NCBI GenBank assembly: GCA_021234155.1
Contig: JAJEKV010000280.1
Span: 248,001 to 312,000 of the forward strand
DNA from: Isoetes taiwanensis
Taxonomy: Eukaryota > Streptophyta > Lycopodiopsida > Isoetales > Isoetaceae
Length of the DNA: 64,000 nt
Direction of reading: 5' to 3'
In this document: piece after piece, positions 1-53,001 of the stretch
Layout of the letters: each line of letters begins with the position of its first letter
Position numbering within the stretch: position 1 is the first letter of the stretch
Notes under the pieces: generated by a model
Told to the model about the DNA's origin: nothing
Database searches by the model: none
Seen by the model: only the letters and a program-made list of their open reading frames with translations
Translations under genes and position numbers: made by a program

Positions 1-118
1 GCGGTGCGTGGGGCCATGTCAATGCTAGTCTAGAGGAGGCATCCGTGAATCGGGGGTTTGAGAAGCTATTTGGGCTGCGGGCTATCTTGATGATGGGTGT
101 CGATTCACGAGGCTAATT

Positions 119-905: not shown

Positions 906-1564
906 TCTTAATTCCATTGATGGTCTAGTGATAATCTTTTAGAGTAACTTTATCGATAAGAGCCAGATTTACAGGTATGCAGCTGCCATCTCATGTCCAA
1001 AATATAGACTGCTGAAATTTTATAACTTCATTAGCAATTTGATTCATCTATTTGAGTGAACAAATGTTGGGTCGATTTAGATGCACTCCAATGAGTTGGG
1101 TTGATTTTATGGATTCTTGCTAGTATTACATTGTCATGCTGAGAAGTAATTTTTGCATCTCAGTTCAGTGCTGGGAGTGGTATTATGGTTGTCTGGTACT
1201 AGAGGTCCAAGAAACAGTTAAATATCGTCTTGGATTTTATGTTCTAAAAGATTTCATGTATAGTACAATTAGTTTTGATGTTGATAAAGGGCTAGGGGTA
1301 TTCCATGATGGTTTTCCATATCAGGCTATAACTAAGCTAAAAAGCTACTTCTAGAACACCCATTCCAATATTCTGATAGTGCCTGGCTTCTCCGGGACTA
1401 CATTTGCATGGAGTTGTCTACTGCAAAATATTGGACCCTATCTGTGATAGTTGCATTCGGCAATCCGTGTATCCTAAATATCTCCTTCAAAAAGAGTTTT
1501 GCTCTGTTGCTATTCTCTTTTCTGTTATTGGTATATATTGACTAGAACTCACTATTTATAGCAG
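906..1564. other. spacer without recognisable gene
   Basis: AT-rich sequence follows the MA3 fragment. The 72-codon open stretch at 1136-1354 has no recognisable motif or splice context, so I do not call it a gene. Confidence 0.5.
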
Positions 1565-1758
1565 CAGGAAGAGATTGAGAGTACGGATCAGAGTTCAAAA
1601 GAAGATTCCTTATCATCCTCAATATGTTTTTGATTGCCAACATCTGTTTCATTAAAGCAAGTTTCTTCACTGAAACCACAAAGCAAACAAGATTTAACCA
1701 GCAAGCATTTTGTTTATGGACTGAGCAGCGAGGAGATTCTAAGGAAAGATGCTAATAG
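1565..1758 (+). pseudogene. exon-like relic with one in-frame stop
   Basis: A stretch between an acceptor-like TATAGCAG and a donor-like AG/GTAATC reads open in one frame except for a single TGA near 1631. It begins QEEIESTDQSSKEDSLSSS and ends FVYGLSSEEILRKDANR. The composition is protein-like (charged, Ser-rich), but I recognise no family. It may belong to the decayed gene whose MA3 domain lies upstream, or be chance. Confidence 0.22.
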
Positions 1759-1979
1759 GTAATCTGCAATGCATAACTAAATTGTTCCTTCTCATCCTTG
1801 TCTCTATGTCATGTTTGAGCTTTGGTTTTAATAATAGCTATTATTTGCATTTAAATAAATTGTTTGTTCGATGTTTCCCATTTTAGAGCATAAATATGCA
1901 TTCGAAGCAAGCTATGCAAAAGTAATTTTTGTAGCCCTCTTATTGTCTTGAGCTGTTATCTCTTGAATTTGAGATTTAA

Positions 1980-2110
1980 TATGGCCGCCGCGAACATTTC
2001 TCTTTATCAAAATTATGCTAAGTCGAAATGATATCAATTCTGGACCTGTGAAAGCCAAAGCAATACCTATGCTTGAAGAGTTCGAACCTCCATATCTAAG
2101 CACACGTGCG
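1980..2110 (-). mobile_element. tRNA-like SINE, truncated copy 1
   Basis: On the minus strand a B-box-like GGTTCGAACTC (2078-2088) is followed by a body matching the copy at 58.99-59.21 kb. Shared blocks are TCCAGAATTGA, TTCGACTT and GAGAAATGTTCGCGGCGGCC (1983 onward). The A-box half and the distal arm of the terminal hairpin are missing. Shared order of B box, body and half hairpin supports one family. Confidence 0.5.
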
Positions 2111-2174
2111 TTCATTTACACAAACACCTCGATGAAATTTGCTTCATTTACACAAACACCTCGATGAAATTAGC
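2111..2174. repeat. two-copy direct repeat, 32-bp period
   Basis: A 29-bp block beginning TTCATTTACACAAACACCTC occurs at 2111 and again at 2143. It lies immediately upstream (in minus-strand terms) of SINE copy 1. Confidence 0.8.
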
Positions 2175-2537
2175 TCAAGAGAAATCGTAAACATGTGTGT
2201 GTTTGTATGGGCACAATGCAATTCCCCAAGTATGAGATGGACCTTTCCATTCGGTTCGTGAACTACCGATACAATAATTGGACCTCCATTTTAACCTCTC
2301 AATATACGCTTCTTAAACCATTTTGTAGTTCTTAGGACCATTTTGTAGCTCTAAGATGATCAAAGTAATGATTCTTTGAATATTTATTACAATCCATTAA
2401 ACTATTTGACATAAAAATAGCTGCCTTAACATTTCAGTGCATTGCATAAAACCTTGCTAGGGTTAATTTTTTTTTATATAGCCTTTAATAAGCACATAGT
2501 AAAAGTTGGTATCAATTTCAACTAGAGAAAATATCCA

Positions 2538-4166
2538 ATACTCAACCACGTATTTCTGTAGCAATTGCTAGACGGATAGTACTCAAGGAAATTTCATCTA
2601 TAGAATCAAACTTTTGCTTGTCTTGTACATCTAGTCGTGTATATTTGCCTGACTTCAACTCCTCCTCTCTCTTTTTTGCTTTTAGAAGCTGAATGCATTT
2701 GGAGAATCTCAAACAAATGCTATATATTTCCACTTAACAATTTCAACACTTAAAGAAAACAGCAAAAGCAACTTGTGTCGTGAGGAGGTAGAAAATAGAG
2801 TGTGCATGGGGCGAGATCTTCAGTGCATCACAAAAAAAAAACATGTATCCAATTGAAGGTAGTAGTAATAATGATATGCTAACCTGTTACTGCAAGACGG
2901 TCAATTGAGTTCTTAATTTGTTATTCCCATTCTTTTCATGTTCAAACGCCAACTTTAAACACCGATTCTAAGGGAAGGAAACAATGTTACATTTACTTTC
3001 CTTGCCTGGACAATATCAACATTTTCCAAAATGTTGTTAACCTACATATTTCATTCATGTGGTTTTGTTTTTTACTTATGAGACCATTAATATGAAAAAC
3101 TAGTGCAGTAAAGAACAGAAAATTCACGACGTTGTTAAAATTATCCATATTCTTTCCAAAAAGCTGATATTCTCTCTAAAGAGCATGGTTCTTGAAAATC
3201 TAAAAGGACAAATAAAAAATTGGACCATATAACTTGGATGCATGTATTGAATCTGCCATTTTATTGAGATCAAAGAAACAATTTATATGATGATAGGGTA
3301 GGCCTGCCTTTTTAAATAACTCCAGAATTTTCGCCTCACGAACATTGCAGCCTTCTCCATTAACTAGTACCTCTAAAAGATGCCTGTGTTTTGTATCCAT
3401 AAGAAATTCTTGCTAGTTAGATGCCAATGATTCTTAACATTTTGTAATGAAGACTTTACTTTAAATGCTTTAGCTCGGACTCTTGCAATTTTGATTTATC
3501 CTGTAACTCTCCCATTATTTTCTCCCGCAAGCAAAAACTAAGAAGGGTGTGAGAACATACTTGATGTAGTAGACACTTCCCTACTAATGGAATAAAATTT
3601 ATACTTCTGAAGGGCCTTCTTCCAATGGCGGCGGGCAATGATGGAAGCTTTCTTGGGAGTTATTTCCTTCTTGAGAGCCATTATGCTCAAACAATCTACA
3701 TAAATCGCCAAACATATAGTTAGCAAGACTTGGTTATAATAGATGCATTAAACACGAATGTTGGTTTTGGTCGCCAGAAATATAGTTCTTCAATTCTCAA
3801 AAGCCTCAACCCATTCCTTCATAATTTTGTTGCATTAAAATATGTTTATAGTCTCCCCAAATCATAGCCATTGCTTGCTGAACTTCAATCAATTAGTTGT
3901 CACTGCTTACAGTAGGAAACAGAGGAGAGGAGATTAAACATAAATGCGTTGCCGACCGAGATCGACAGGAATTCAGAATTTAGCAAAATGAAAAAGGGGC
4001 TAAAATAAATCAAGGGAGAGCGGATCGTAAAGACTTCTAGGGTTTGTTTATGACGGTCGAAATTGCCTTGCAAATCTTCATGCACAAGGCTCCAATTTGT
4101 TGATTTATATTGCCTTCTTTCCTCCTCTGCGCTGGTTTCCATTTTTCTCTGAAATTTTCCCCGCAT
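2538..4166 (-). other. possible multi-exon gene, minus strand, unrecognised
   Basis: Several short minus-strand open stretches have protein-like composition and splice-like borders. These are METSAEEERRQYKSTNWSL (start near 4139), MALKKEITPKKASIIARRHW (start near 3681), LREKIMGELQDKSKLQESEL (near 3520), EAKILELFKKAGLPYHHI (near 3310) and LKAKKREEELKSGKYTRLDV (near 2680). Together they could be exons of one charged, partly helical protein. Alternatively they are chance open stretches. I recognise no domain and cannot fix the joins. Transcript evidence would decide. Confidence 0.2.
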
Positions 4167-4169
4167 TCA

Positions 4170-6050
4170 CTGCCTCTTTGTTCGCAGAATAATTTATTTC
4201 CATGCTTGCGCGAACAGGAATGATGGTTCTAACTGATTAGAACAAATGGGCCAGGCCCAAATCCCTGTGCCGGAGTAAAGATCAGCTTAACCAAGATCAG
4301 TTGATCCTGCTTCATCATTTTTTAACCCGCTTGGACCTTTTCTTTTGTGGGTTTTTATTTTGGGCACCTTTTCTGCCCGGAGCTCAAAATACTCTGATCT
4401 TGGTGTTTCTTTTGGGCGCAAGATCTAGTTTTGTGATACACAGGTTGTCGGATGAGAAAAAATGCTTAAAGAAAACCTGTTTCGCAGGTTTAAATCTAGT
4501 GAAGCAGAAGTTTCAAAGACGGACATGGATTCAGCTTCTTGAAGGCGGTGCAGGCCTCAGTAACCAGCAGAGCATCATTTTCTCTTTTCTTTTCTTCTTG
4601 CAGAAAAAAGTCCGGGAAAAACATGCGTTAACGTTAGAATGCATGGCTTGCTGCCACGTGGGCGTTAGTATTGGACATAATAGATTATATATGTGTAGAT
4701 TATGGGGCTGTTATTTCTTGAATTTGACATTTCATATTATGTGTCAGACATGGGAAAGGACATTGGAAACTCATCCTACAAAGAAACCCTGATATCTTCC
4801 AAAACCGTTTTGAGGTACATTTTACTTCGTCTTCCCACTACAAAATCTTTGTCCGGGCTTTGTTGTCATTCTATTAATTATGTCAGGTCGATTTAAAAGA
4901 AAAATGGAAGAATATTGAAAGGGCTGAAAGCATTCTCCGGATTTCAATTGAGGTATTTGTTCCTACTAGATACCTTGATTCCAGGGATAGAATTTACCGA
5001 GACGGAACAGTACACAGGACGCTACATTGGGAACGAGCTTTGCTTTTGAAAGAATGTATCTATGTGTTGTAGACTCTGGGAATGTGTCTAGATGTTGCAG
5101 ACTCTAGGATGCGGCGTAGGACTTAGATGTACAATGACTCTTTTCTGCAGCCCATGAGAGGGCACAAAGGAATAAGCCCTTTCCATTTTTTATACTACAA
5201 ATGCACTGCAACAGAAGATGCTATACGTGGGGTAAAAGGGCTTGGTTGTTTCTGCAGTCAGTTGGTGTAGAGAATCGACAAACAAACTGCTTAATGAGAG
5301 TGCAATTTTCTCTTTGCCTGGAAATACACATTCATATCCATTATCCATTTGATACTAGAAATGTGTGCTTCTCTATAGAGAATCGGCAAACGAGCCCTGA
5401 GACCTACCAATATTGCAAATCTAGAGAAAGAGAATTGTTGCTTGCACATTTTGAACTTCAGTCTTGAAATGGCAACAGTATGTTCATGGTACCACATCAT
5501 GACTGGAAACTGATAGTAGCATATATGTCTCTTATCCCATTTGCCGTAAACCATGCTTCAGGATGCCCATCAAGTGTACCTCCATGTAAATGCAGCACAA
5601 TTGGAACTCCTCCAATTGGTGGATTTGTCATATTTAGAGTTCTGTCCACAACTGATAGATGGCATGTATCAGTTACGTAATTTTGCTAGCTGGTTCTAGC
5701 TACTTCTCTACGTATGGCTATAAATGCAGGGTCAGAATGCATAGCCAATGGTGCTAAATGCAGAGTGTTGTATTTGAAAGATCTCTGTGTAAATTCTACA
5801 CCATAAACACTATTGGTACTCCATTCAACATCGTAAGCTCAATCCTCAATAAGAAAAATTCGATGTACTTGTGATATTTTGTATGCTCCAAGAGTTAGAG
5901 AGAAATACTTGAAAAAGGTCTATATGGATAGGGACGGGAAAGCGGTCCATGAATTTCTCAAGAACAAGAGACAACTGGAGTTGCTAGCAAATAGATTGCA
6001 CATTCAACTACCCAATCCAACACATCATCAAAAAAGATAAGCATATAAAC
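4170..6050. other. spacer without recognisable gene
   Basis: I see no conserved domain on either strand. The longest open stretch (4301-4792) has no motif, and long runs of F, L and H residues suggest non-coding DNA. Confidence 0.5.
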
Positions 6051-6056
6051 TTATTG

Positions 6057-6082
6057 GATTACAAGAAATTTATCGCGGCGGC
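6057..6082 (-). mobile_element. SINE 3'-terminal fragment, copy 2
   Basis: A 26-bp block ending in ATTTATCGCGGCGGC is identical to 58,994-59,019, the terminal hairpin arm of the SINE at 59 kb. Nothing else of the element is visible here. Confidence 0.5.
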
Positions 6083-6236
6083 ACTCCAAGACACCCAGAG
6101 TTAAGAAACTTGTGTGAAATTGAAAATGGTTCGAAAGCAGCACCTGCACTAGCGTCAGATACGGTCTTGAGTTCATGATTGCAACATTCTAACAAAGTCT
6201 AGAATAATCTCATAACAAAAAAAAGCTTAATCAAGA

Positions 6237-6366
6237 AATTTCTATTGGAGTCTGGCCAAACTTAGTCATATAGGATCTCATAACAAAACGAAACTTAAAC
6301 AAGAATATTCTATTGGAGTCTAGCCAAACTGAGTCATATTCTATTGGAGTCTAGCCAAACTGAGTC
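6237..6366. repeat. short direct repeats (about 31 bp)
   Basis: The phrase TTCTATTGGAGTCTAGCCAA recurs at about 6308 and 6339 with a 31-bp period. A more diverged copy lies near 6238. Confidence 0.75.
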
Positions 6367-6710
6367 ACTTGTGCCAAAATAATACCCATGATCTTCCCAA
6401 TAACCCTGAATTTCTTTCTAATACCCAATATCTCATCTTGAGACCCAACATTTCAAAGTCCACCATACTATTTAACACCCACATTGTTTGTTTGAAATTC
6501 CATGTTATGTGTATCTAAAAGAACTATGAAAGAATAGCATAGATAGATGCATAGGCTAACAAAATTTCACAAGGTTTCAATCAGCGCAAATATAAGACCT
6601 AAGGTTGGCATAGAGGTTTGGGGATTTTGTTGTGCCTATTGTTATCAAATTAAGAGTGTGCTTGTCAAACGAATAAGAAAAATAGAGATGGTATTTTTAA
6701 CTCTCTCTCT

Positions 6711-9528
6711 CTCTAGACGTTGGATTTACACCAGACAGTTAAGAGTTGAAACAAGATAGTTAAGGAATAAGACATACTATAGTGAACTCATATGGTTGCT
6801 GGGTAGGATAAAACGGATAATATTCCTTCATTTGCAAAAAATTAATAGAAGAAAAAGCTAGGGAAAATTTGAGCACATCTGACTTCTCTAATATGCCTTC
6901 ATGGAGTAAGATTTGAAATCTTGGTATTTAAAGGTAAAGGATGAGTTGGAAAAATATGTTTTCATTTCTCCGTAACGCTAAGCACAAGTTCCCATGGGCA
7001 TATTTAAAGCATACTAATGCAATTTTAGATGGCTCTTAAATGCTGTGGTTGCCTCGTCTCAGACATAGGGCACATTGTAACCACGTTCTTCACGGAACTT
7101 GAGCCTTTGCTTAAAGACGGAACGTGCTAAGTTAATAATTGGTACTCAATGGCTTTCCATCTAAAACTTGGTCGTTGTATGCATATTATAGCTATTGGGT
7201 TAATAGAGAACTGTTTGCCTTTAGTTGGATGCTACAAATGCACAAACATGTGTTTGCCCCTAGTCCTTTCCCCTTAGTCGGATGCTTCAAATGCACAAAC
7301 ATATTTTGCCGGATGTGCAATTTTTGGTCAGAATAATCGAAACATTTTTTGAAAATGTATCTTGTCAAAATTTGTCGAAATTATATTGTCCAAGATAATG
7401 TATACATTTTTGACACGATTTTGCCCTAAAAACACCGTCGGATTTGTTGATTACGGCCTTCATACTCATCGATCCGGGCGCAGTTGATTATCTGTGGAAA
7501 CAAATCTTGCTATTATAGTCTACCATTCGGCTTGCAACAATCAGGTTATTTTCTTTCTTCTCTTGCGGATGTTATTCACGGGCTTTGATATTGCATGAAG
7601 CGGTCTTATAAAATGGATTGTAACTCTCCCTGCATGATTCGACCCTTCTCATGTGTCTTGTTTTGCCCTCTTAGTGGCACTAAGTTACGTATGGAGTAAT
7701 GAAGCGATTTTCTTCAATTTCCTTTGTGCAAACATGGCCTTAAGCTAATCAAGTTCTTGATGATTCCGAGTCTTCAAATCGGGTATGGTACACCAGCCCT
7801 TTCGTGTTGTGCGTTTAAATTATATTATGTTTGCAATGTAGAACTCTTGGCCGTTTAGATATTGTTGCCTTTGTATAATTATATGATCGGGGCTTTTGCA
7901 TAAACCGCATTTATAGGAAACCATTCTAAAACCTTCAGAAACAAGAACTTGACTTATGCATAATGTGTCTTTTCTACCATTTTTTGCGGAAATAAGCATC
8001 CCTGCTGGTCCGAAAGTTGAGGCACGACTTAATGCTTATGATTGATGTTTGCACTAACTCTCGATCCGATTGTTACATTGTTTGAGATCTAACCTTTGAA
8101 TAATTAATAACATGACCGACTAGCTCAAATCAATTTTCACATTATGACTTTTTGTATCGTCTAAGTTACATTTGTAACAGATCGGAATCATTCGATTTCT
8201 AGACATAACATAGAAACAACTTTTAGAGTCCCGATAGTAGATAATTTGCCGTATGAGTACAATCAATTAGATGCTCCATGGATATTTCAAGGGTTGCTTA
8301 TACGAAGCTATAGTTGGGTTTATTTACATGGATGTGATTTTCTTGGGACTTTTTTTTTGCATTCATAAATACAAAAAGGTTGGACATGGATAACAACCGG
8401 TTCTTTTGCACGACACGTAATGTCTGGTTGCAACCGACTTCGTTTGTTTGCTTTCTATGGATGCAGGTAAAGCAAAGGCCTTGACCTTTGATGTATTTGG
8501 ACAACGAAGTTGCCTTCTCGGAAGGGAGTAGAATTGTTCTCATGCAATGCGAATGTCAATTGTTATTTTTTTCCAAAGGAATACCTTTACGGTCACATTT
8601 ATTACAATCATCTTACATTTATTTAGTTAAGGTTTGGCTTCAATGGGTTTAGCTTTTGCTAAGGTGTTCTCGTCTCTCTCCCCCTCTCTCTCGTACTTTA
8701 GAAGTACCACCACCTATATTCCTTATTTGGAATATTGCCCTTTGAATCTTGATCTTAATACTTAAATGTAGATAGTGCTCTTGTTTCCAGGTTTATGACA
8801 TTGGAGCAGTTTTAAAGCTTTGACTAGGATTGGGTTTGGCAATGCCCTTCCTGCACCTATTCCCATTATTCAAAATTTTCGCTATAAAGAGAGGGTTCTA
8901 TTATTTGCTCCTGAGTCTAATTTCATAGCGTGTGATGACGTATTTATCCGAGAGAGATGCTTATGTGCTTGACTGACATCATGGAATTGTACTTTTGAAA
9001 TGCAAAAAAAATATTGAAAAGAAGATTCATGGGAGACTGTTTAATGTAGTTTTATTGACAACCTGCAAGAAGAGTAGCTTACAGTAATTGTTCCTATTAC
9101 CTTCACCTTGTTCCTACTTTTAAATTAGACTTACCAACATCTCAAAAGTTGCCTCATTCTCTCTTGACGAGTTCTTAATCCCTTTACACCTCTCGTGTCC
9201 TTGTACCCAAGTAGTAAACTTCTGCCTTCGATGCTATTGCTGTATCCAAAGCTAATATCCCTTTTGTCACTAACTGAACAATTGACTCTATATTTGCTTC
9301 TAAATATTACAGGTTATGGGCTTTGCCACCATTGATTTTTAGTATGCCAATTTTCATAGACTTATGGGCTTTGATCGGCGACTTGGGAGGAGGAGAAAAG
9401 AATTTTTGTTGCAGAAAAGCGTTGTGGGCTTGACTTACCCATCTGAGGATCAATTTACATAGTACCGGAACTGAGCCAACTTACACAGCAGGTCAGATTT
9501 GAGAAATATTGTGAAGTTGGAAAGGCAT
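6711..9528. repeat. 2.8-kb tandem unit, copy 1
   Basis: The unit starts CTCTAGACGTTGGATTTACA and recurs at 9529 and 12341 (periods 2818 and 2812). I found no recognisable protein domain. Compared with copy 2, the visible differences in the stretches I aligned are mostly small substitutions or indels where copy 2 has CAG or CTG: CAGG becomes CGGG, AAGTTCTGTATGG becomes AAGTTACGTATGG. A (CT)n-like tract lies just before the unit and another near 8675. Confidence 0.85.
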
Positions 9529-12340
9529 CTCTAGACGTTGGATTTACACCAGACAGTTAAGAGTTGAAACAAGATAGTTAAGGAATAAGACATACTATAG
9601 TGAACTCATATGGTTGCTGGGTAGGATAAAACGGATAATATTCCTTCATTTGCAAAAAATTAATAGAAGAAAAAGCTAGGGAAAATTTGAGCACATCTGA
9701 CTTCTCTAATATGCCTTCATGGAGTAAGATTTGAAATCTTGGTATTTAAATGTAAAGGATGAGTTGGAAAAATATGTTTTCATTTCTCCGTAACGCTAAG
9801 CACAAGTTCCCATAGGCATATTTAAAGCATACTAATGCAATTTTAGATGGCTCTTAAATGCTGTGGTTGCCTCGTCTCAGACATAGGGCACATTGTAACC
9901 ACGTTCTTCACGGAACTTGAGCCTTTGCTTAAAGACGGAACGTGCTAAGTTAATAATTGGTACTCAATGGCTTTCCATCTAAAACTTGGTCGTTGTATGC
10001 ATATTATAGCTATTGGGTTAATAGAGAACTGTTTGCCTTTAGTTGGATGCTACAAATGCACAAACATGTGTTTGCCCCTAGTCCTTTCCCCTTAGTCGGA
10101 TGCTTCAAATGCACAAACATACAGCTGCCAGATGTGCAATTTTTGGTCAGAATAATCAGAAACATTTTTGAAAATGTATCTTGTCAAAATTTGTCGAAAT
10201 TATATTGTCCAAGATAATGTATATATTTTTGACACGATTTTGCCCTAAAACACCGTCGGATTTGTTGATTACGGCCTTCATACTCATCGATCCGGAACAG
10301 TTGATTATCTGTGGAAACAAATCTTGCTATTATAGTCTACCATTCGGCTTGCAACAATCCAGGTTATTTTCTTTCTTCTACTGCCAGATGTTATTCACAG
10401 GCTTTGATATTGCATGAAGCGGTCTTATAAAATGGATTGTAACTCTCCCTGCATGATTCGACCCTTCTCATGTGTCTTGTTTTGCCCTCTTAGTGGCACT
10501 AAGTTCTGTATGGAGTAATGAAGCGATTTTCTTCAATTTCCTTTGTGCAAACATGGCCTTAAGCACTGAAGTTCTTGATGATTCCGAGTCTTCAAATCAG
10601 GTATGGTACACCAGCCCTTTGCTGTGTTAAGCGAAATTATATTATGTTTGCAACAGAACTCTTCTGGCCGTTTAGATATTGTTGCACTGTATAATTATAT
10701 GATCAGGCTTTTGCATAAACTGCATTTATAGGAAACCATTCTAAAACCTTCAGAAACAAGAACTTGACTTATGCATAATGTGTCTTTTCTACCATTTTGC
10801 GGAAATAAGCATCCACTGCTGGTCTGAGTTGCAGGCCTGACTTAATGCTTATGATTGATGTTTGCACTAACTCTCTGATCTGATTGTTACATTGTTTGAG
10901 ATCTAACCTTTGAATAATTAATAACATGACCGACTAGCTCAAATCAATTTTCACATTATGACTTTTTGTATCGTCTAAGTTCTGTTGTAACAGATCGGAA
11001 TCATTCCAGTTTCTAGACATAACATAGAAACAACTTTTAGAGTCCTGATAGTAGATAATTTGCCGTATGAGTACAATCAATTAGATGCTCCATGGATATT
11101 TCAAGGGTTGCTTATACCGAAGCTATAGTTGGGTTTATTTACATGGATGTGATTTTACTGACCGTTTTTTTTGCATTCATAAATACAAAAAAGGTTGGAC
11201 ATGGATAACAACTGGTTCTTTGCTACGACACCTGTAATACGGATTGCAACTGACTTCGTTTGTTTGCTTTCTATGGATGCAGGTAACAGCAAAGGCCTTG
11301 ACCTTTGATGTATTTGGACAACAGAAGTTGCCTTCTCAGAAGGGAGTAGAATTGTTCTGTCTGTCTGAATGTCAATTGTTATTTTTTTCCAAAGGAATAC
11401 CTTACGGTCACATTTATTACACTGTCTTACATTTATTTAGTTAAGGTTTGGCTTCAATGGGTTTAGCTTTTGCTAAGGTGTTCTACGTCTCTCTCTCCCC
11501 CTCTCTCTCGTACTTTAGAAGTACCACCACCTATATTCCTTGACTGGAATATTGCCCTTTGAATCTTGATCTTAATACTTAAATGTAGATAGTGCTCTTG
11601 TTTCCAGGTTTATGACATTGGAGCAGTTTTAAAGCTTTGACTAGGATTGGGTTTGGCAATGCCCTTCCTGCACCTATTCCCATTATTCAAAATTTTCGCT
11701 ATAAAGAGAGGGTTCTATTATTTGCTCCTGAGTCTAATTTCATAGCGTGTGATGACGTATTTATCCGAGAGAGATGCTTATGTGCTTGACTGACATCATG
11801 GAATTGTACTTTTGAAATGCAAAAAAAATATTGAAAAGAAGATTCATGGGAGACTGTTTAATGTAGTTTTATTGACAACCTGCAAGAAGAGTAGCTTACA
11901 GTAATTGTTCCTATTACCTTCACCTTGTTCCTACTTTTAAATTAGACTTACCAACATCTCAAAAGTTGCCTCATTCTCTCTTGACGAGTTCTTAATCCCT
12001 TTACACCTCTCGTGTCCTTGTACCCAAGTAGTAAACTTCTGCCTTCGATGCTATTGCTGTATCCAAAGCTAATATCCCTTTTGTCACTAACTGAACAATT
12101 GACTCTATATTTGCTTCTAAATATTACAGGTTATGGGCTTTGCCACCATTGATTTTTAGTATGCCAATTTTCATAGACTTATGGGCTTTGATCGGCGACT
12201 TGGGAGGAGGAGAAAAGAATTTTTGTTGCAGAAAAGTTGTGGGCGACTTACCCATACAGGATCAATTTACATAGTACCGGAACTGAGCCAACTTACACAG
12301 CAGGTCAGATTTGAGAAATATTGTGAAGTTGGAAAGGCAT
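9529..12340. repeat. 2.8-kb tandem unit, copy 2 (reference-like)
   Basis: This copy keeps CAG/CTG where copies 1 and 3 show varied substitutions, so it is probably closest to the true unit. Short exon-like stretches occur: one before 11,300 (AKALTFDVFGQQKLPSQKG, just after a TTTCTATGGATGCAG acceptor-like sequence), and one at the unit end reading VRFEKYCEVGKASLDVGFTP before a stop. These may be exon pieces of an unrecognised host gene trapped in the repeated unit. I cannot assign a family. Confidence 0.85.
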
Positions 12341-14306
12341 CTCTAGACGTTGGATTTACACCAGACAGTTAAGAGTTGAAACAAGATAGTTAAGGAATAA
12401 GACATACTATAGTGAACTCATATGGTTGCTGGGTAGGATAAAGCGGATAATATTCCTTCATTTGCAAAAAATTAATAGAAGAAAAAGCTAGGGAAAATTT
12501 GAGCACATCTGACTTCTCTAATATGCCTTCATGGAGTAAGATTTGAAATCTTGGTATTTAAAGGTAAAGGATGAGTTGGAAAAATATGTTTTCATTTCTC
12601 CGTAACGCTAAGCACAAGTTCCCATGGGCATATTTAAAGCATACTAATGCAATTTTAGATGGCTCTTAAATGTTTGTGGTTGCCTCGTCTCGGACATAGG
12701 GCACATTGTAACCACGTTCTTCACGGAACTTGAGCCTTTGCTTAAAGGCGGGCGTGCTAAGTTAATAATTGGTACTCAATGGCTTTCCATCTAAAACTTG
12801 GTCGTTGTATGCATATTATAGCTATTGGGTTAATAGAGAAGCTGTTTGCCTTTAGTTGGATGCTACAAATGCACAAACATGTGTTTGCCCCCTAGTCCTT
12901 TCCCCTTAGTCGGATGCTTCAAATGCACAAACATACGGTTGCCGGATGTGCAATTTTGGTCGAATAATCGAAACATTTTTGAAAATGTATCTTGTCAAAA
13001 TTTGTCGAAATTATATTGTCCAAGATAATGTATATATATTTTTTGACACGATTTTGCCCTAAAAACACCGTCGGATTTGTTGATTCACGGCCTTCATACT
13101 CATCGATCGAGGAGCAGTTGATTATCCGTGGAAACAAATCTTGCTATTATAGTCTACCATTCGGCTTGCAACAATCCGGGTTATTTTCTTTCTTCTCTTG
13201 CCGGATGTTATTCACGGGCTTTGATATTGCATGAAGCGGTCTTATAAAATGGATTGTAACTCTCCCTGCATGATTCGACCCTTCTCATGTGTCTTGTTTT
13301 GCCCTCTTAGTGGCACTAAGTTACGTATGGAGTAATGAAGCGATTTTCTTCAATTTCTTTTGTGCAAACATGGCCTTAATCGAAGTTCTTGATGATTAGA
13401 GTCTTCAAATCGGGTATGGTACACCAGCCCTTTCTTTGTGTTAAGCGAAATTATATTATGTTTGCAAATGAACTCTTACGGCGTTTAGATATTGTTGCCT
13501 TTGTATAATTATATGATCGGGCTTTTGCATAAAGCTGCATTTATAGGAAACCATTCTAAAACCTTGAAATAAGAACTTGACTTATGCATAATGTGTCTTT
13601 TCTACCATTTTCGCGGAAATAAGCATCCTTCTTCTCGTGGGAGTTGCGTGCCCGACTTAATGCTTATGATTGATGTTTGCACTAACTAACTCGATCGATT
13701 GTTACATTGTTTGAGATCTAACCTTTGAATAATTAATAACATGACCAGACTAGCTCAAATCAATTTTCACATTATGACTTTTTGTATCGTCTAAGTTACA
13801 TTTGTAACAGGTCGGAATCATTCAGGTTTCTAGACATAACATAGAAACAACTTTTAGAGTCACGATAGTAGATAATTTGCCGTATGAGTACAATCAATTA
13901 GATGCTCCATGGATATTTCAAAGGGTTGCTTATACGAAGCTATAGTTGGGTTTATTTACATGGATGTGATTTTCTTGACCGATTTTTTTTTTGCATTCAT
14001 AAATACAAAAAGGTTGGACATGGATAACAACTGGTTCTTTGCTTTCGACACTGTAATGTCTGGAGTTGCAACCGACTTCGTTTGTTTGCTTTCTATGGAT
14101 GCGGGTAACGGCAAAGGCCTTGACCTTTGATGTATTTGGACAACGGAAGTTGCCTTCTCGAGGAAGGGAGTAGAATTGTTCGTCAATGCATGCGAATGTC
14201 AATTGTTATTTTTTCCAAAGGAATACCTTACGGTCACATTTATTACCTTTGTCTTACATTTATTTAGTTAAGGTTTGGCTTCAATGGGTTTAGCTTTTGC
14301 TAAGGT

Positions 14307-14309
<3 letters not shown>
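12341..14309. repeat. 2.8-kb tandem unit, copy 3, truncated
   Basis: It follows copies 1 and 2 up to GCTAAGGTGTTCTC, where the other units continue through a short CT-rich stretch. Here a long (CT)n tract and a LINE take over, so about 0.85 kb of the unit is missing. It shows the same corruption at CAG/CTG sites as copy 1, but often with a different wrong sequence at the same site. Confidence 0.85.

Positions 14310-14394
<85 letters not shown>
14310..14394. repeat. (CT)n microsatellite
   Basis: An uninterrupted run of CT dinucleotides about 85 bp long. It lies where tandem copies 1 and 2 carry a short CT-rich tract, and so marks the left border of the LINE insertion. Confidence 0.95.
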
Positions 14395-30028: not shown

Positions 30029-31062
30029 AGGAATCTAATTTCCATCAGTCAACTAGTAGATATGGGATATACTGTCAATTTTGACAGGTCACAATGTACT
30101 ATCTTATTGGATAATGAAATCAAATTTTTTGGAAAAAGAGTTGGGAATCTTTTTGGACTAGATAATGATTGTCTACCAACAGTAAATGTTATTATGGCAA
30201 CTGATATCAGCACTTGGCATCAAAGATTATGTCATGTCAGCAATAAAAACATTGAACTGATGGTTAAACAGGGATTAATTGAAGCAAGAGAATGTAAAGA
30301 AAACATCAGGAGCTGCTATGGATGCATGATGGGAAAACACACAAGACTACCTTTCAAGAAATCACAGAAAAGAGCAAAAGGAATTCTGGATATTGTGCAT
30401 ACAGACCTTTGTGGACCTCTTACTGTGAGGAGTATTGGGGGAAAAAGGTATTTACCTTTATTGATGACTTTAGTCGAAGGACCAAAATTGCAAGCTTAAA
30501 AACAAAAGATGAGGCTTTTGAAGCTTTTAAAATTTTTTTAGCAGAAATAGAGCTCGAGACTGGGAAAAGAATTAAGTGCCTAAGATTTGACAGAGGAGGA
30601 GAGTTTATTTCTAGTGAGTTCAAAAAGTACTGCAAGATTAGAGGCATCAAAAGGCAATTGACATGTAGGTTCTCACCACAACAAAATGGTGTGGCAGAAA
30701 GGAAGAATAGAACAATTTTAAATGCTGTCCGAGCTATGCTTAAACACACTGGCTTGCCAAATTACCTCTGGGAAGAGGCAGCCCAAACAGCTGTAGAAGT
30801 TCAGAATATGCTACCATCTACAAGTATTAATGGTGCTCTACCAGAGAAACTTTGGTCTGAAATAACACCTAACTATGATAAGCTAAAAGTATATGGTTGT
30901 CTTGGATTTGTTCATGTTCCTAAGGAACAAAGGAAAAAGCTTGATGACAGGGCTAAAATTGGATATTTAGTGGGATATGATGAGCAATCAAAGGCCTATA
31001 GAATGTTTGATCCTACCAAGAAAAAAATAATGATCAGCAGGGACGTAACCTTTGATGAATGA
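30011..31062 (+). pseudogene. Copia-1 GAG-pre-integrase and integrase core
   Basis: The pre-integrase zinc-binding region reads TWHQRLCHVSNKNIELM...CYGCMMGKH. A +1/-1 change near 30,440 leads to the catalytic core. Its D,D,E residues are visible as FIDDFSRR (30,463), LRFDRGGEF (about 30,587) and NGVAERKNR (about 30,690). The C-terminal part ends DPTKKKIMISRDVTFDE. The role is insertion of cDNA into the genome. Two frame breaks make it inactive, though every catalytic residue remains. Confidence 0.88.
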
Positions 31063-34806: not shown

Positions 34807-35485
34807 TGAAGAATTTATGGTCATGTCATAGCAGTTTATACTACTGCCATCAATTTTGAAGATAGAAGTTCAGAACTGTAACATTGCTATAAATTAAAGT
34901 TGCAGAGCAGTTTACATGACCATAATCATGGTTGTGTGATCATGAGCATACTATCTGAAGGGGCTATAAGTTGAACCTATATCTATCTGAAAGGGTCGAA
35001 AAAAAGGTTGATGCAAAAATATTATTAGGGATGATTGTTATGACCCGAATGGTTGGCATGCAATGGTCTTAGATAAGGGCCTTTTATTTTTAAGAAGGTC
35101 TTATCTATTTGAGGTTAAAATTAGTATTGTTATTCTCGGTCCAATGCCTTAGTGGCATGAAAAACACAGGACCTTCAAAGTTTCCATTCCGGCTACAGTA
35201 GGTGAGCTCGGTCCGGCTAATCGGCCGGATCAACAAATAAAATAAGTAGTATGTTATTTGATTAGGTAGATCGCCAGGGAAAAGCATTGTTGCAGCCGCT
35301 GTATACTGATGCTTGGGCTATCGAAGTTGAATATGATATTTCATTGCTACAGTACTTTAGCCTTTGAATTTCATTGACATTGTTTGTTATATTTCTAATG
35401 GTTGCCATTGTCAATGTTTAAATTTGTTTCCAACTAGATCTTGTGCTAGTGCAAATAATCTGTATTGCCTAGTCAAATCCGTTCA
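34807..35485 (+). repeat. Copia-2 5' LTR
   Basis: Starts TGAAGAATT and ends GTTCA just before the PBS. A TATA-like CTATAAATT lies at 34,887. It lacks a 27-bp segment (TTAAAACAAAGCATCTC region) present in the 3' LTR near 52,900. Confidence 0.93.
34887..34895 (+). promoter_or_regulatory. TATA-like box in Copia-2 LTR
   Basis: CTATAAATT is conserved in both LTR copies (also near 52,381). Confidence 0.35.
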
Positions 35486-36868: not shown

Positions 36869-37083
36869 ATAATGAAATTCGGTTTGTTGGAAAACGTGTT
36901 GGAAATCTTTTTGGCTTGAATGCTGAACATCTTATACCAAGTATTAATGTAGTTACATGCTCATCTATTAAAACATGGCATGAACGATTATGTCATGCTA
37001 ACTCCAAGATCATAGAACTTATGAGCAAGCAGGGTTTGATTAATGCACAAGGAAATGAGGATGCCTTTTAGGCAAATACAGCA
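36865..37083 (+). pseudogene. Copia-2 GAG-pre-integrase, split by element A
   Basis: The reading FVGKRVGNLFGLN...TWHERLCHANSKIIELMSKQG corresponds to the zinc-binding pre-integrase region. A shift near 37,055 leads to GCLLGKYS, where element A interrupts. Translation resumes at SRLPFKKSWKRAKG at 42,335. Confidence 0.85.
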
Positions 37084-37113
37084 GGGTGAAAGTATGCTGG
37101 TGGGTGGCAAAAG
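37084..37113 (+). repeat. element A left TIR
   Basis: GGGTGAAAGTATGCTGGTGG followed by GTGGCAAAAG pairs with the right end. It runs directly into a perfect 24-bp palindrome (37,111-37,134, centre GTCCGGAC). Next come inverted 15-mers CGCTTAAAGCACCCC (37,152-37,166) and their complement (37,183-37,197). Confidence 0.93.
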
Positions 37114-37272
37114 CATGCGTCCGGACGCATGCTTATAGCAGGGTTTTAGCCCGCTTAAAGCACCCCTGCTTTTGCTTAATTTGGGGTGCTTTAAGCGTAA
37201 CTGCCCGTCATTTTTTTTACGCCCTTCATGTACTAACACGTCCACCTCACGAATGAACCGTTAGGATAATGA

Positions 37273-40200
37273 TTGTGGGTTTTTGGCTGGATTTTTCAGC
37301 GAAAGTGGTGTGGTAGTACGTTGCAAATTGGATTACCGTCATGGGCGCGAAAATTCTCCCTCCAATTCAATTATCCTCCCTCTCGGGGAATTTCATGGCG
37401 CCCTCGATACCGCCTGGAGGCAATCACGCGTTTAGCATTGGATTTTCGGCCCGATGAATCCCAATCTGATGTTCCAAATTTGTTGGATGTCAATCCAACA
37501 CAGAAATATCACGTGAAGATCCGGTTTCCTCACGCAATTTACAAGAAATTGGATGCAGAGAAAGAGAGAATACGATTAAGGAATAAGATGAAAAGAGCGG
37601 TTGAGCGGGGAGGATCCCGAGCATGAGACTTGAGGCAAGAAATAGCCAAGCAAGTAGTTGATTACTTCAATAAGCTCACCAAAAAGCATTCACGGAACTC
37701 AAGGCTGATGTGATGAAGAGGGTGGTTCATCACCAACTAAAATGGAAATCTCGAGAACACGGACTTTTGCCAAATCCAAAGGAGTGCAAGGCGCGGGAGT
37801 GCTGCTCAACAACTTGAAACAGACAATGGCAGCCACAAAGAGGCAAAGGAACCATGATATTTGGAGAGCCAGAACCTCAACACTTGTGATGGCTTCTTCC
37901 ACAAATTCGAGATGCAATTCCACTATGGCAGGGCTGTTAGGTACATCTATTTCTTGTCTTCATGCCCGTGGCTTCTTCATGCTTTCAAGTGCTTGTATCT
38001 ATTTGAGTGATCTTTGGCTGGGATATGTTCATTGATACATGTGCAATATTTCTTATGATAGGTTGCATGAGGTCAACAATTGCAACCGCTTTGATTAAGG
38101 AAATCGGAAGCCTTCCTTGAAATGGTCCGTGGTCCGCTTTCCAAAAGAGGTTGAGGTCGCGATTCTCTCACCCGCTTTGCAAGCAAAGCATAACAGACTC
38201 GAAAGAAAACGCCAGAGTCTCTCCTTGCAAGAAAGATGTTGTGAACACCGTTGTTGGAGAGTCGGGGCTTCAATTTCTTATCCCTTGCACCTTCGGAGGT
38301 CACACAGTGTATAAGTTTCCATACAAACTTTTTTTTTACGCTATTTCTAACCAAAGGCCACCATTCAATTTGCGAGCTATATCAACAATACAAAAGGGAC
38401 ATCCCGAACACCCTGTTTGCTTAAAGGCTTCGAGAAGTTGAAGCCTATTTATGTGAAGAAAGTATCGAAGGGAAACCTGTTGTTGCATATACCATATGAA
38501 GTTGGAGTATGCGAGGGTAGCACTTCAATGCATTAAGGTCAACAAAAAACGGATTCCATGGTGAAGAGTGCAAGTGCACCCGCGAGGTCTGTGGACTGGT
38601 GAGAAGTGTCGGCCAGCCAACATACGTGATGACTCAACTTGGCCGAGCTCGGAGGGTCGTGGGTTTGCAACAAGAGCGAGGGTGAAGAATGGGTATAAAC
38701 ATGACCGATGATGCGGACATGTCGGCGTGGCACGAAAAGTCTTCCTATATGTCCAAGAGAAAGAGAGAATCACGAAGTTCTTGCTTGAATGGAAGACGTT
38801 TGAAAAGGTAATACTCTCTTTATTGTTTGGTTGAAGCATGCTGATATGTCTTTGTCATGCTACCGACCATCGCTTTTGTGCTTTCAACTTGGCTTGATCT
38901 TCTTTTTTTTATGCTACTGACGGACCTTGTTACTGATTCCTGGAGACGAAGAAGCTGATGGAGTTGCGACTGCGTTACCAAAGGAAGTGCAGTGTGGCAA
39001 AGAAAGAAAAGATCTAATGCCACCAAGAAGGGAAACCAAAGTAAGAAGTCCAAGGTAGCTGGTGGGACACTCCCTGAAGCTGCAGCACAAGCTGAGAAGA
39101 ATGGAAACAAAAGTAAGAAATCCAAGGCAGCTGGTAGGACACAGCCTGAAGCTGCAGCACAAGTTGAGAAGAAGGGAAACAAAAAGTAAGAAATCCAAGG
39201 TATTTGGTGGGACCACGACTGAAGGCCGCAAACACAAGATGAGACCTCAAATGGCAAGGGGAAAAAAGAAAGGACCAAAGCGGTTCTTAGATTGTCTTAC
39301 AAGAGAACGGCGGTGAAGGCTTTCATTTCATATCGTGTTCCACGTTGAAGATATTCGTGTCACACAATTACGGGGGCTAGGTGGCGAGGCCATGCAATTC
39401 AAGAGTTGCTTGGACAATATCCAAGATGGCACCATTGTTTACGTAATTGATTTTCTTTGAGATTCTGACATCAAAATACAAAGGGAGGTTCAAAGCCAGC
39501 ATTGGCACAATGACCAAATAACAATTCTCGTCCACATCACGTATAGGATGGACAGCAGCTCTGGGATCAGAAAGCTATTGAAGGAAACCCATTTTTACTT
39601 GAGTGATGACAAGATTCATGACACTCTTTTTGTGCAACACTGTCTTAGAAAGCACAATTCATGGCTAGTATCAAATGGTGTAGAATTCTCCAGGCATATA
39701 GTTTGGTCAGATGGTTGTTCTAGCCAATTCAAATCTGCCCGACCATTCTATTTCCTACCAAGATATCACCACGAGCTAGGGAAGGAAATAATATGGAATT
39801 TCTTTGGGACAGCCCATGGTAAGGGGAGAGCCACGATGGGCAAGGGGCAGTCCTCAAAGGGGCATTCACTAGAGAGCGACTCAAGTATGATGGAGTGAGA
39901 TTTAGGGGTGCTGCTGATGCCTGTGAATTCGCTATGAGTTGGAATGAAGGTGCCAGCAACGGGGACATCAAGAGGTAATATGCTTTCATCTGCATTCATC
40001 TGCTTTTAACGTGCTTTCATCTGCTTCACAAAGTGCTTTTATCTGCTTTTATCTGCTGTGTAATGCTGTAATGTGCCTCTGTACTGTATGTGAACTGCAA
40101 TAGTTGTTGCTGGCTTTTTGCAGGCACTTTTGGTTCATTGGAAAGGATGATGTTGATAGGACGTAACCCGGGCTGGACGTGTGCGAGGTAGAAGGGACGA

Positions 40201-40470
40201 AGGAAATACACAAAGATCGGGACATACTTGGCCAAATCAAGCACAAAGGGTGGCTCATAGAGGTTTAAGTTGTTTCGTGGTAACTGTTTGAAAGGAAACC
40301 GGTCATCTTGTGTGAACAAGCGAGAGGTTAAAGAATTGGAAATATGTTACTCTAAAGCCAGAAAAGTCTACTGGTGAAGGTACTGAAGACGAAATCGATG
40401 AGGCATTTTTTGAAGGTGATGGAGAATGGCTTAGTGGAAACATAGAGGAAGGTGATAACTTTGCTGTTGT
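37273..40470 (+). pseudogene. element A transposase-like gene (DF..N / SDGC..QFK / HGKG family)
   Basis: From the C-terminal half backwards the reading is clear: VIDF at 39,443 (catalytic-type Asp at 39,449), REVQSQHWHNDQITILVHI, DDKIHDTLFVQHCLRKH, VWSDGCSSQFKSARPFYF (Asp at 39,710), WNFFGTAHGKG (His at 39,815). After a frame change comes DGQGAVLKRAFTRERLKYDG. An intron with perfect borders (39,975-40,123) joins GDIKR to HFWFIGKDDVDR. The C-terminus is acidic (DEIDEAFFEGDGEWLSGNIE). I know this motif series from uncharacterised plant and animal proteins. The spaced acidic and His residues suggest a DDE-type enzyme, which is inference. Upstream pieces (37.27-39.3 kb) are exon-like, with a Lys-rich repeat. 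Several frameshifts and one TGA are present. Confidence 0.7.
39024..39215 (+). repeat. 72-bp coding tandem repeat in element A
   Basis: About 2.5 copies encode KSKVAGGTLPEAAAQAEKNG-like units of 24 residues, giving a Lys/Ala-rich linker before the catalytic-type domain. Confidence 0.8.
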
Positions 40471-41245
40471 AGACTTGTGTCCGGGGGTCCTTTTACTAAG
40501 AGGTGTTTTGACATGCTTCCTTTTCCTGTTGATATCTGGAGTTGTAGCTACCACCTCATCTAGGTCAATTGTCTCAACTATTTGTTTGTGTGCTGCCCCA
40601 GCATGTAAGGGTTCCTGCTTGACTGTCTTCCCCAATTCCTCCACTAAGCCTGCTGGAACTGTTTCTGAGCATTCGAGGCAGTGTGTCTTCTCCATAAGCA
40701 AACTCAGGCAGCTGACATGATATACGTGGCCACATTTCAGCTTCAGACTTAGGGTGTAATCATCCTGGAATGCCAGCCCGCATGTGGAGCATCGCTCCTC
40801 ATCTCCAATTGGCAACCTGAATGTCACAGGATAGATGCTCACAAGCTGGCCAGCTCTCCTTGTAAGTTCCCTAAGCCTGTTGAGATTCTGTAAATGCTGC
40901 TTGGCTTTTGCAAGTTGCACTTCAGTGTTTGCAACCTCAGCAGCTATAGTGGCCACCTGTTGAACTATCCCCTCATCTATTGGGCCACCCCCATTTCAAC
41001 AAGGGCTTTGAGCATGTACTTCGCCATGTCTTTCTCTCTCCAAGCTCGGTAGCTCGGCAGAGGCACCAAGCATCGGGACCTGCGGATCGCTTGAAGACGT
41101 AAGATGTTGTCTTTAATTTTCGCAATTTCTCTTTACGAAGCCAAGAAGAAAGCTCCCTTAGCTTTGGGGACTGGACAACTAGCTCCTTCTTGGAGACTAA
41201 ATCGGCCCCTCGCTGCGTGTCTAGGGTTTCTGCAAATCTTTGCAT
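40303..41245 (-). pseudogene. element A RING-H2 zinc-finger protein gene
   Basis: Minus-strand ORF 40,956-40,303 holds a textbook RING-H2 finger: C56, C59, C75, H77, H80, C83, C93, C96 counted from the first Met (CSTCG, KCGHVYHVSC, HCLEC). A coiled-coil-like stretch (EVQLAKAKQHLQNLNRLREL) precedes it and a basic tail (INRKRKHVKTPLSKR) follows. Another frame (41,245-40,973) continues upstream (MQRFAETLDTQRGADLVSKK...), so a frameshift or intron near 40,970 joins them. RING-H2 proteins are usually E3 ubiquitin ligases. The last 50 codons are antisense to the transposase C-terminus, so the true end may lie earlier, near 40,480. A role in transposition is inference. Confidence 0.68.
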
Positions 41246-42304
41246 AGGACTTCAGGCGTGATATGTTCTCCCCATAAGGCGTGTAAGTTTGTTGGGCGAT
41301 GCAAAGCTCTAATGGGCGGCCACCCTTCTAATTTAATACGGTGCCTCCTGGAACCGGCCTTTACGCTATGCTTTCAAGTCGCCGTGGTTTCTTGAGATTT
41401 GCCGGCCTCGCCCCGCTTCTTCTGGAGCAACTTGCTGCGGTTCACTTTTAACCTTCTTTGCTTGTAGGCTCTACTCTTTCTTTGAATCGCCGCCCAATTA
41501 ACCTTGAACTTCGTGGATCCCGCTTTGCTCGAGGCGGTTATTGAATGCAAATAGGTATGATAATCGTCTTTCTAACTTCTCTCGTTTCTTCAACCCGTCC
41601 GGGTATATTTTGCTCGAAGCTCTATTAGAGCTTCTTCGTGCCTCGGCCTCACCTTGTCAATGGAAGTTTTGCCGGGAATGACCCCGTTGGTATCCCAAAC
41701 TTCATTGTACTGGCTGCGAAAATGAGGTCTGCTCGAAATTGAGAGGGATGGCCCTCGTTTGGCATTCGCATACGCATGGAAGTCTTCTTCGGTTCGGCAA
41801 TCAGCCAGTCCGGTCTTAAGGGAACGCGTTTCCGCCTGGAAGAATGCAAGAAAATCGAATTAACCGTGGTTGAACCCTAAACCCATTGAAATTTTGTTTT
41901 GTTGCTTTTGCTTACCCGGATAATGGGTTCCGTTGGAATTATCGCTTGAGGTAGGCGGATCAATCACCTTCTTTACCATGGTTGATCTGTTTGTATAAAG
42001 TGGAAATCGAAAAAGCATAAATTAGCGGGTTGCTTGGCCGAGGAGTAGAAAGTTGGGGAATAGAGATTTGGAAAAACACAAAATTGAAAGTTCGATTCGT
42101 TTGTCTAGTGGTTCCAGTTTGCGGGGTCGCTTTCATTCTTGGAGGCGGCAAGCAGGGTAATGATTGTATAAGCGGGCACAGGCTAGGCGAATAGACGGGC
42201 AGAATATAGGTGGTACTATATAGGTGAAGGGTGGGAAAAAAATGTATGACGGGTGGGAAAAAATGTATTTTGGGTCTTTGGTCTTTGGTCTTTGGGGTCG
42301 GCGT

Positions 42305-42334
42305 TTTTTGCTACCCACCAGCATACTTTCACCC
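42305..42334 (-). repeat. element A right TIR
   Basis: The reverse complement reads GGGTGAAAGTATGCTGGTGG then GTAGCAAAAA. Just inside lies a GGTCTTT triple repeat (about 42,277-42,297) and two GGGTGGGAAAAA(A)ATGTAT blocks. Confidence 0.93.
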
Positions 42335-43368
42335 AGCAGGCTCCCTTTTAAAAAATCTTGGAAAAGAGCCAAGGGATTGCTAGATCTTGTGCACACTGAC
42401 CTTTGTGGGGTCTCTAAATGTAACCAGCATGACTGGGATGCATTATTTTATAACATTCATAGATGACTTTAGCAGGAGGACAAAAGTGTACTGTTTAAGA
42501 ACAAAAGATCAGGCATTTGAAGTGTTTAAACAGTATTTAAATGAAGTTGAACTTGAAACAGGAAGAAAGATCAAATGCTTACGTTCAGACAGAGGTGGAG
42601 AGTATTTGTCTAATGAATTGAAAGCTTATTGCAAAAACACGGGAATCAAAAGACAGTTAACATGCAGGTTCTCTCCTCAACAGAATGGTATTGCTGAGAG
42701 GAAAAATCGTACCATTCTAAATGCAGTAAGGAGCATGTTGAAATATACAGGGCTGCCTAATTTCCTTTGGGATGAAGCAGTCAGAACTTCAGTGTATGTA
42801 CAAAATCTTTTACCTTCTAGCAGCCTTAATGATGCTGTGCCTGAGATGTTATGGAAAGGTAAACTTTCAAATTATGATCTATTAAAAGCCTATGGATGCC
42901 TAGCCTTTACACATGTACCTGAAGATTTAAGAAGGAAGCTAGATGACAGGGCATACATTACCTACTTAGTTGGCTATGATGATCAGTCCAAAGCTTATAG
43001 ACTTTATGATCCGAAAAAAGAGGAGAATTCTTATAAGTAGGGATGTTGTGTTTGATGAAACACAATACTACAAACAAATTCCAAAGGTAAATCTGCATGA
43101 TGATATATCAAAGGGGAAACAGTATTTTGAAGAAACTGAAAATGGAACACAAATACAAGATGATACATCTGAGGGGAAATTTCATGAACCAAAGGTTCAT
43201 TTTCACATAGATGATATAGAAGATGATTGCAAAATGACTAATACCTTTACATCTTCTAAGTATGTGCAGTTTGAACATGAAGATCCCAATCAAAACAAAT
43301 TGGTGACAGAACAAAGAAAAAGGAGAACTGAAGTTGAGAAATTACAAGAAAATGTTGAAGATCAACAA
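42335..43368 (+). pseudogene. Copia-2 integrase
   Basis: After element A the reading resumes SRLPFKKSWKRAKGLLDLVH. The D,D,E core is FIDDFSRR, LRSDRGGEY and NGIAERKNR, followed by FTHVPEDLRRKLDDRAY. Frame changes occur near 42,400 and 43,015; after the second it continues RRILISRDVVFDET. It ends in an acidic, poorly conserved linker at VEDQQ, where element B inserts. All three catalytic residues are kept. Confidence 0.88.
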
Positions 43369-52295: not shown

Positions 52296-53001
52296 TGAAG
52301 AATTTATGGTCATGTCATGATCATAGCAGTTTATACTACTGCCATCAATTTTGAAGATAGAAATTCAGAACTGTAACATTGCTATAAATTAAAGTTGCAG
52401 AGCAGTTTACATGACCATAATCATGGTTGTGTGATCATGAGCATACTATCTGAAGGGGCTATAAGTTGAACCTATATCTATCTGAAAGGATAAAAAAAAA
52501 GGTTGATGCAAAAATATTATTAGGGGTGATTGTTATGACCCGAATGGTTGGCATGCAATGGTCTTAGATAAGAGGCTTTTATTTTTAAGAAGGTCTTATC
52601 TATTTGAGGTTAAAATTAGTATTGTTATTCTCGGTCCATTAGTGGCATGAAAAACACAGGACCTTCAAAGTTTCCATTCCGGCTACAGCAGTGAGCTCGG
52701 TCCGGCTAATCGGCTGGATCAACAAATAAAATAAGTAGTATGTTATTTGATTAGGTAGATCGGCAGGGAAAAGCATTGTTGCGGCCGGTGTATACTGATG
52801 CTTGGGCTATCGAAGTTGAATATGATATTTCATTGCTACAGTACTTCAGCCTTTGAATTTCATTGACATTGTTTGTTATATTTCTAATGGTTGCAATAGT
52901 TAAAACAAAGCATCTCTATTCCATTGTCAATGTTTAAATTTGTTTCCCACTAGATCTTGTGCTAGTGCAAATAATCTGTATTGCCTAGTCAAATCCGTTC
53001 A
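52296..53001 (+). repeat. Copia-2 3' LTR
   Basis: Same limits as the 5' LTR (TGAAGAATT...CCGTTCA). Extra segments relative to the 5' copy are a short duplication near 52,317 and 27 bp near 52,898. Confidence 0.93.

Follow-up and report, generated by a model that had tools for sequence, protein, structure and literature searches.

A DNA transposon at positions 37084-42334 of a 64,000-nucleotide stretch of the Isoetes taiwanensis genome (assembly GCA_021234155.1, contig JAJEKV010000280.1, positions 248,001 to 312,000; hereafter the window, in whose numbering coordinates are given) was reported in a preliminary description to pair a transposase-like gene with a RING-H2 gene. This locus raises the question of whether such a pairing is a regular property of a transposon lineage, and what a RING protein might do for a mobile element. 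Comparison with relatives in the same genome led us to a reading that we hold with moderate confidence: the window contains an internally deleted, non-coding copy of a high-copy cut-and-paste transposon, whose fuller relatives are about 7.6-8.0 kb long and have three gene regions. One strand carries a multi-exon gene for a probable transposase; the other, facing it, holds a gene with a NIF/FCP1-like HAD phosphatase domain and a RING-H2 gene.

Twenty relative loci were taken at ranks 2-21 of a genome search with the transposase domain, chosen solely by transposase score, and their gene content was recorded by tblastn at E 1e-4 (several of the matches are pieces in broken frames). Transposase pieces were present in all 20 loci. 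The RING domain was found in 17 of them (absent from L022, L025 and L036), the conserved N-terminal domain of the RING protein in 18 (absent from L022 and L036), and the NIF domain in 19 (absent from L022); in every case these accessory matches ran antisense to the transposase core. Loci selected by their transposase thus confirmed that transposase-like and RING-H2 genes occur together within one element bounded by terminal inverted repeats (TIRs), and the concern that other copies might lack the RING gene did not materialize. The two-gene content first described was right as to the RING partner and incomplete in that the NIF gene, lost from the window copy, had been overlooked. The left 317 bp of the window copy matched 39 other places at 93-97% identity (40 scored of 728 candidates), and at least 150 scored places each were obtained with the RING query (427 candidates) and the transposase query (6347 candidates). 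Ten loci with both ends and without large deletion measured 7,581-8,004 bp, and L025 measured 5,797 bp. The proposed search for more copies with the same TIRs and both open reading frames therefore did find relatives, and a chance TIR or a chance open reading frame is ruled out by the copy number, the shared ends and the co-occurrence of the genes.

Aligned with L029 (7,751 bp), the window copy matches positions 1-3378 and 5881-7751 only and lacks about 2.5 kb. The missing stretch (approximately 3379-5880 of L029) takes in the whole NIF gene, the end of the RING protein and roughly half of the final transposase exon, and the junction lies at 40467-40472, where the two alignments to L029 overlap by 6 bp. 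A single plus-strand protein with the motifs VIDF, SDGCSSQFKS and HGKG...DG had been described here. The motifs are present but the single frame is not, as a stop follows VIDF and the frame changes between HGKG and the next DG. To judge from its letters, the window copy is internally deleted and no longer coding.

The ends of the copy are exact. Comparison of the arms and the sequence letters placed the left TIR at 37084-37112 (plus strand, beginning GGGTGAAAGTATGCTGGTGGGT) and the right TIR at 42306-42334 (minus strand); the TIRs start with GGG, giving the element GGG...CCC termini. TIRs of 30 bp had been claimed; they are real, but 29 bp long with 28 of 29 bp identical. The copy alignment revealed a 24-bp perfect palindrome at 37111-37134, which extends into the left TIR at its inner edge and is identical in 10 of 12 aligned copies (the exceptions are an insertion in L025 and one base change in L029); it is a possible transposase binding site.

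The target-site duplication (TSD) AGCA was read from the sequence at 37080-37083 and 42335-42338. By itself the window copy could be read as having a TSD of 4 or 6 bp; the 6-bp reading is ruled out by the other copies, with which the 4-bp reading agrees. At 6 or fewer substitutions both ends were recognized in 11 loci, one end in six and no end in three, and TSD scoring covered the 11 two-ended loci, the window and L024, whose second end and TACA/TACA duplication were found at a looser match setting (the other eight of the 20 loci were left out). All 11 two-ended loci had perfect 4-bp TSDs of variable sequence (TTAT, AACT, ACTT, GAGT, ATAA, GTAT, TATA, AGAA, AATT, TGGG and ACTG), with A or T at 33 of 44 positions, which completes the TSD survey proposed in the preliminary description.

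The element is inserted in a Copia retrotransposon with long terminal repeats (LTRs) at 34807-35485 and 52296-53001 (92.6% identity). When the flanks are joined around a single AGCA, their alignment to a second Copia in the window runs through the junction (67% identity, 427 of 633 columns), and a 301-base joined flank compared with the genome gave nine best matches of 81-90% identity that cross the junction in 314-328 bp (40 scored of 472 candidates). These alignments indicate that the insertion was precise, as had been claimed. The integrase region of a second Copia (30344-31059) is 68.8% identical to that of the Copia holding the insertion.

In the relatives, the plus strand carries an N-terminal exon, a Cys/His-rich exon, a core exon and, behind a GT-AG intron, a C-terminal exon (splice sites by eye). 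The window retains remnants of all four: the N-terminal exon or exons in a broken frame at 37395-37935 (limits approximate, by eye; similar to the L029 frame at element positions 184-930), the Cys/His-rich exon in two pieces at 38378-38810 (best identity 40%, tblastn), the core exon with VIDF, SDGCSSQFKS, HGKG and frameshifts at 39425-39974 (sequence and tblastn), a predicted GT...AG intron read from the sequence at 39975-40123, and the start of the C-terminal exon at 40124-40471, where the deletion leaves 114 of 219 residues (L029 alignment and tblastn). The family alignment gives the core motifs as VIDFAENY, SDGCSSQFKS and HGKGEHDGQG, and the plus-strand protein is a probable transposase. 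Proteins of the HGKG type presumably also occur in animals. A 72-bp tandem repeat lies just before the core (39025-39241); it is Lys-rich, encodes SKKSK in open copies and varies in unit number between loci. The Cys-rich exon is itself inverted in L034. A codon-phase scan of an 18-copy alignment gave a single scan interval above a chi-square of 9, too weak for exon definition.

On the minus strand of the window, the RING-H2 domain lies at 40633-40812 (profile match, tblastn and ligand alignment), and the complete C3H2C3 finger that had been described was verified, with all eight ligands in the order C-x2-C-x15-C-x1-H-x2-H-x2-C-x9-C-x2-C. This C3H2C3 ligand spacing is the RING-H2 pattern. The surrounding stop-to-stop frame of 230 aa (40306-40995) contains the RING and part of a presumed coiled coil; its orientation, convergent with the transposase, was correctly described, but its C-terminal end of about 165 bp (approximately 40306-40470) consists of transposase sequence in antisense, placed there by the deletion. 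Two pieces at 41455-41834 are remnants of the conserved N-terminal domain of the RING protein (minus strand, tblastn). In L035 the RING protein is one open frame of 623 aa. Its layout, judged by eye, is a conserved N-terminal domain, a probable coiled coil, the RING and a charged tail, and a short first exon upstream of the frame is likely by the same kind of inspection. The RING frame stops at about the same place in L019, L029, L035 and L037, and no clear start of the NIF frame was seen; RING and NIF may be either one spliced gene or two separate genes.

The relatives carry two diverged right halves (RING gene and right end) joined to one transposase-NIF half. Compared with the common type in 250-bp steps, the transposase-NIF half of L025, L034 and L035 is 79-98% identical, except for the first two steps of L034, where the left region is inverted. 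The right half of these three loci is 59-80% identical to the common type and 79-96% identical among themselves; at 7001-7250, which corresponds to the conserved N-terminal domain, identity to the common type reaches 83-86%. The two halves meet near 4.75-5.0 kb of the element, with NIF on one side of the switch and RING on the other, a pattern that would suit exchange of the RING gene as a module.

Ratios of nonsynonymous (dN) to synonymous (dS) substitution were calculated with a Nei-Gojobori script on aligned frames, with columns of low local identity dropped and with open frames only (of the 20 loci, 6 for the RING, 7 for the N-terminus, and 5 each for NIF, the core and the C-terminal exon). 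Across the right-half alleles, the N-terminal domain of the RING protein had dN/dS of 0.04-0.10 (dN 0.05-0.085, dS 0.8-1.9) and the RING half 0.19-0.28 at dS 0.74-0.91; these cross-allele pairs are not independent of one another and draw on a small number of rarer-type loci (L035, plus L025 in the case of the N-terminus). Pairs from a single allele gave 0.20-0.76 (RING half) and 0.04-0.30 (N-terminus), and the transposase core within the family had 0.13-0.45 at dS 0.04-0.14. The C-terminal transposase exon (0.12-1.13) says little. Since dN/dS is low between diverged alleles, the RING protein looks like a selected part of the element, under purifying selection, rather than a chance passenger.

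In L029 the NIF gene is a 348-aa minus-strand frame that matches PF03031 (E 4.5e-20; 72.4 bits, cut-off 21.8). Phosphatases of this family have the catalytic motif D-x-D-x-[TV]. In the element the first motif is instead D-x-N-G, of the form D-[IV]-N-G-V in 17 of the 19 NIF-bearing loci (missing in L025 and split by an insertion in L035), while IWSAS occurs in 12 of the 19 and VDDS in 13. Across the genome, 3261 PF03031 candidates were found and 150 of them scored, including some that belong to the element itself, and this abundance of NIF domains would suit another explanation, that RING and NIF were both captured from the host and ride along as passengers that do nothing for the element. The genome's top-scoring other NIF gene (L039) has about 24% identity to the element's, and the closest of ten other NIF places (L039-L044 and L049-L052) is L050, which shares the D-x-N-G type of motif, a further point for capture. 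Its identity is just 30%, however, which indicates no recent capture from those ten, and the retention of both genes in nearly all loci and the purifying selection on the RING protein between alleles also speak against passengers; we regard this explanation as improbable and already disfavoured. L049 and L051 carry NIF domains of the D-M-N-G-V-L-L type and may belong to other mobile families.

Several observations weigh against a coding transposon whose RING and NIF products work for it. The frames are broken in most copies. All eight RING ligands are kept in just 7 of the 17 relatives with a RING, besides the window, and over these 18 aligned rows conservation is no higher at the ligands than elsewhere (79% versus 81%), because most loss is by frameshift. 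The RING scores below the Pfam gathering score of 27.3 for zf-RING_2 in all three scored copies (window 21.5, L029 20.8 and L035 14.2 bits). The choice of open frames and the dropped columns bias dN/dS toward low ratios. For NIF, dN/dS is 0.34-0.88 in close pairs only and is weak, and catalysis is doubtful because D-x-N-G replaces D-x-D. As for the transposase, profile and structure-database searches with the core, of the kind proposed for the product of 39.4-40.47 kb, yielded no significant Pfam or PDB match, and a single-sequence AlphaFold2 (AF2) model of it was unusable (predicted local distance difference test score, pLDDT, 34.5) and was not carried into a fold search. Among nine core members, no DDE profile matched above chance; DDE_3 (one of nine, E 0.094) and UAE_UbL (four of nine, best E 0.084) were below any threshold and were set aside.

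The sub-threshold, atypical RING match also fits a different role, in which the transposase has the RING protein as a structural partner, a second subunit for binding DNA or bridging the ends, and the RING is a zinc assembly fold rather than part of an E3 ligase. That the N-terminal domain is more conserved than the RING agrees with such a role, but the eight ligands are kept at canonical RING spacing in both alleles (L035 and the common type), which exceeds the need of a generic zinc fold, and we consider a purely structural role rather unlikely, if worth keeping in mind.

For the preferred reading the following course may be proposed. The plus-strand protein would be a DDD-type transposase, with the D of VIDF, the D of SDG and the D of HGKGxxDG as its triad, and would make a 4-bp staggered cut. 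The RING protein would be nuclear, given basic stretches seen by eye in its tail, and would perform E2-dependent ubiquitin transfer; its most likely role would be the removal or modification of the host's silencing factors where the element lies, or control of the transposase level. The NIF protein would have the same targets, whether host factors or the transposase. That the RING protein protects the transposase or blunts silencing, as first suggested for the window, is still an inference, now accompanied by the evidence of selection on that protein. In its fullest form, the proposal would be a transposon lineage that encodes two proteins, one ubiquitin-ligase-like and one HAD phosphatase-like, as a counter-defence pair directed at silencing by the host, and in which the RING module is exchanged between transposase backbones; we advance it only tentatively.

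We know of few eukaryotic transposons whose genes act on the protein-modification machinery of the host. If a RING protein has stayed under selection within a mobile element, it would offer a direct way to study transposase stability or escape from silencing, and the high copy number together with two diverged RING-gene alleles in one genome makes this question testable.

Some further observations concern the decay of the copies and the rest of the window. The pairs L026/L027 and L029/L031 differ by 107 and 103 gaps, mostly of 1-2 bp, and by 320 and 329 mismatches over about 7.6 kb; among 40 gap contexts from one copy pair, many are not homopolymers. For comparison, 14 mismatches and 4 gaps separate the two Copia LTRs of the window over 673 bp. 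The indels of 1-2 bp between copies may be decay or assembly error. Hypermutation resembling repeat-induced point mutation was rejected, as C>T was just mildly above T>C per base (0.0204 versus 0.0155, counts 428 and 457, 15 copies). No relatives were found in viral contigs (600 pattern matches in one scan were all unconfirmed, and further scans gave zero). A match in genome contigs (L048) is probably due to chance, as in its frame the residues after it are unlike the family and the stretch before it is cut after 37 residues. At 6710-14336 the window contains a long internal repetition, with two overlapping 4.8-kb stretches that are 95% alike and about 2.8 kb apart.

As to the superfamily, Ginger was excluded since it needs TG...CA termini and an integrase core, whereas the element has GGG...CCC termini and no integrase profile match; MULE needs a TSD of 7-12 bp, and piggyBac and Kolobok need a TTAA target, which occurs in none of the 11 TSDs. 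Sola is the best fit by TSD, TIR and the type and order of motifs, a likeness drawn from published descriptions. The passages on Sola in one source give a DDD transposase, a 4-bp TSD, TIRs of 11-1124 bp, a length of mostly 2-9 kb and occurrence in some plants (PMC10741241), and a Sola2 element is described with AT-rich 4-bp TSDs and an 888-aa transposase (PMC3627910). In these terms the 4-bp TSDs (without fixed sequence here), the 29-bp TIRs and the length of the fuller copies agree with Sola1/2/3, and three Asp stand in conserved motifs in the same order by eye, while for the DDD triad in an RNase H fold that Sola would require, the unusable AF2 model and the lack of a DDE profile match above chance are what was observed. 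Sola elements also span several kb and can carry other genes, as in Sola2-Fanzor chimeras (PMC3627910), although RING and NIF genes are not in the Sola descriptions compared. These resemblances make it about an even chance that the element is an ordinary Sola transposon whose accessory genes a repeat database already lists for one Sola family or another. Against this, a limited literature search of titles and the beginnings of abstracts, with the founding Sola paper outside its scope, found no described element that pairs RING and NIF genes with a transposase of similar type.

The NIF gene resembles the FCP1/SCP (NLI-interacting-factor-like) phosphatases of PF03031 in its significant full-domain match, IWSAS and VDDS, and differs from them in its first motif and in its low identity to the top-scoring NIF gene of the genome. 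Kolobok lineages are likewise marked by accessory genes, namely KolX, a RecQ helicase (once on the complementary strand) and nucleases, in the part of PMC9587614 consulted, but their target is TTAA, unlike the variable TSDs found here. The MULE/VANDAL elements, with vanB and vanC or mudrB, are also DNA transposons with extra genes; they differ in their longer TSDs, and the element has no MULE profile match and carries a separate RING gene facing the transposase, plus the NIF gene. VANC, described as a transposon-encoded anti-silencing protein of VANDAL elements in the portions consulted of three sources (PMC6446971, PMC10398659 and PMC5735166), is a precedent for anti-silencing encoded by a transposon. 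PMC6446971 also tabulates a C3HC4 ring finger for one Phytophthora MULE, so that the mere presence of a RING in a transposon has a precedent.

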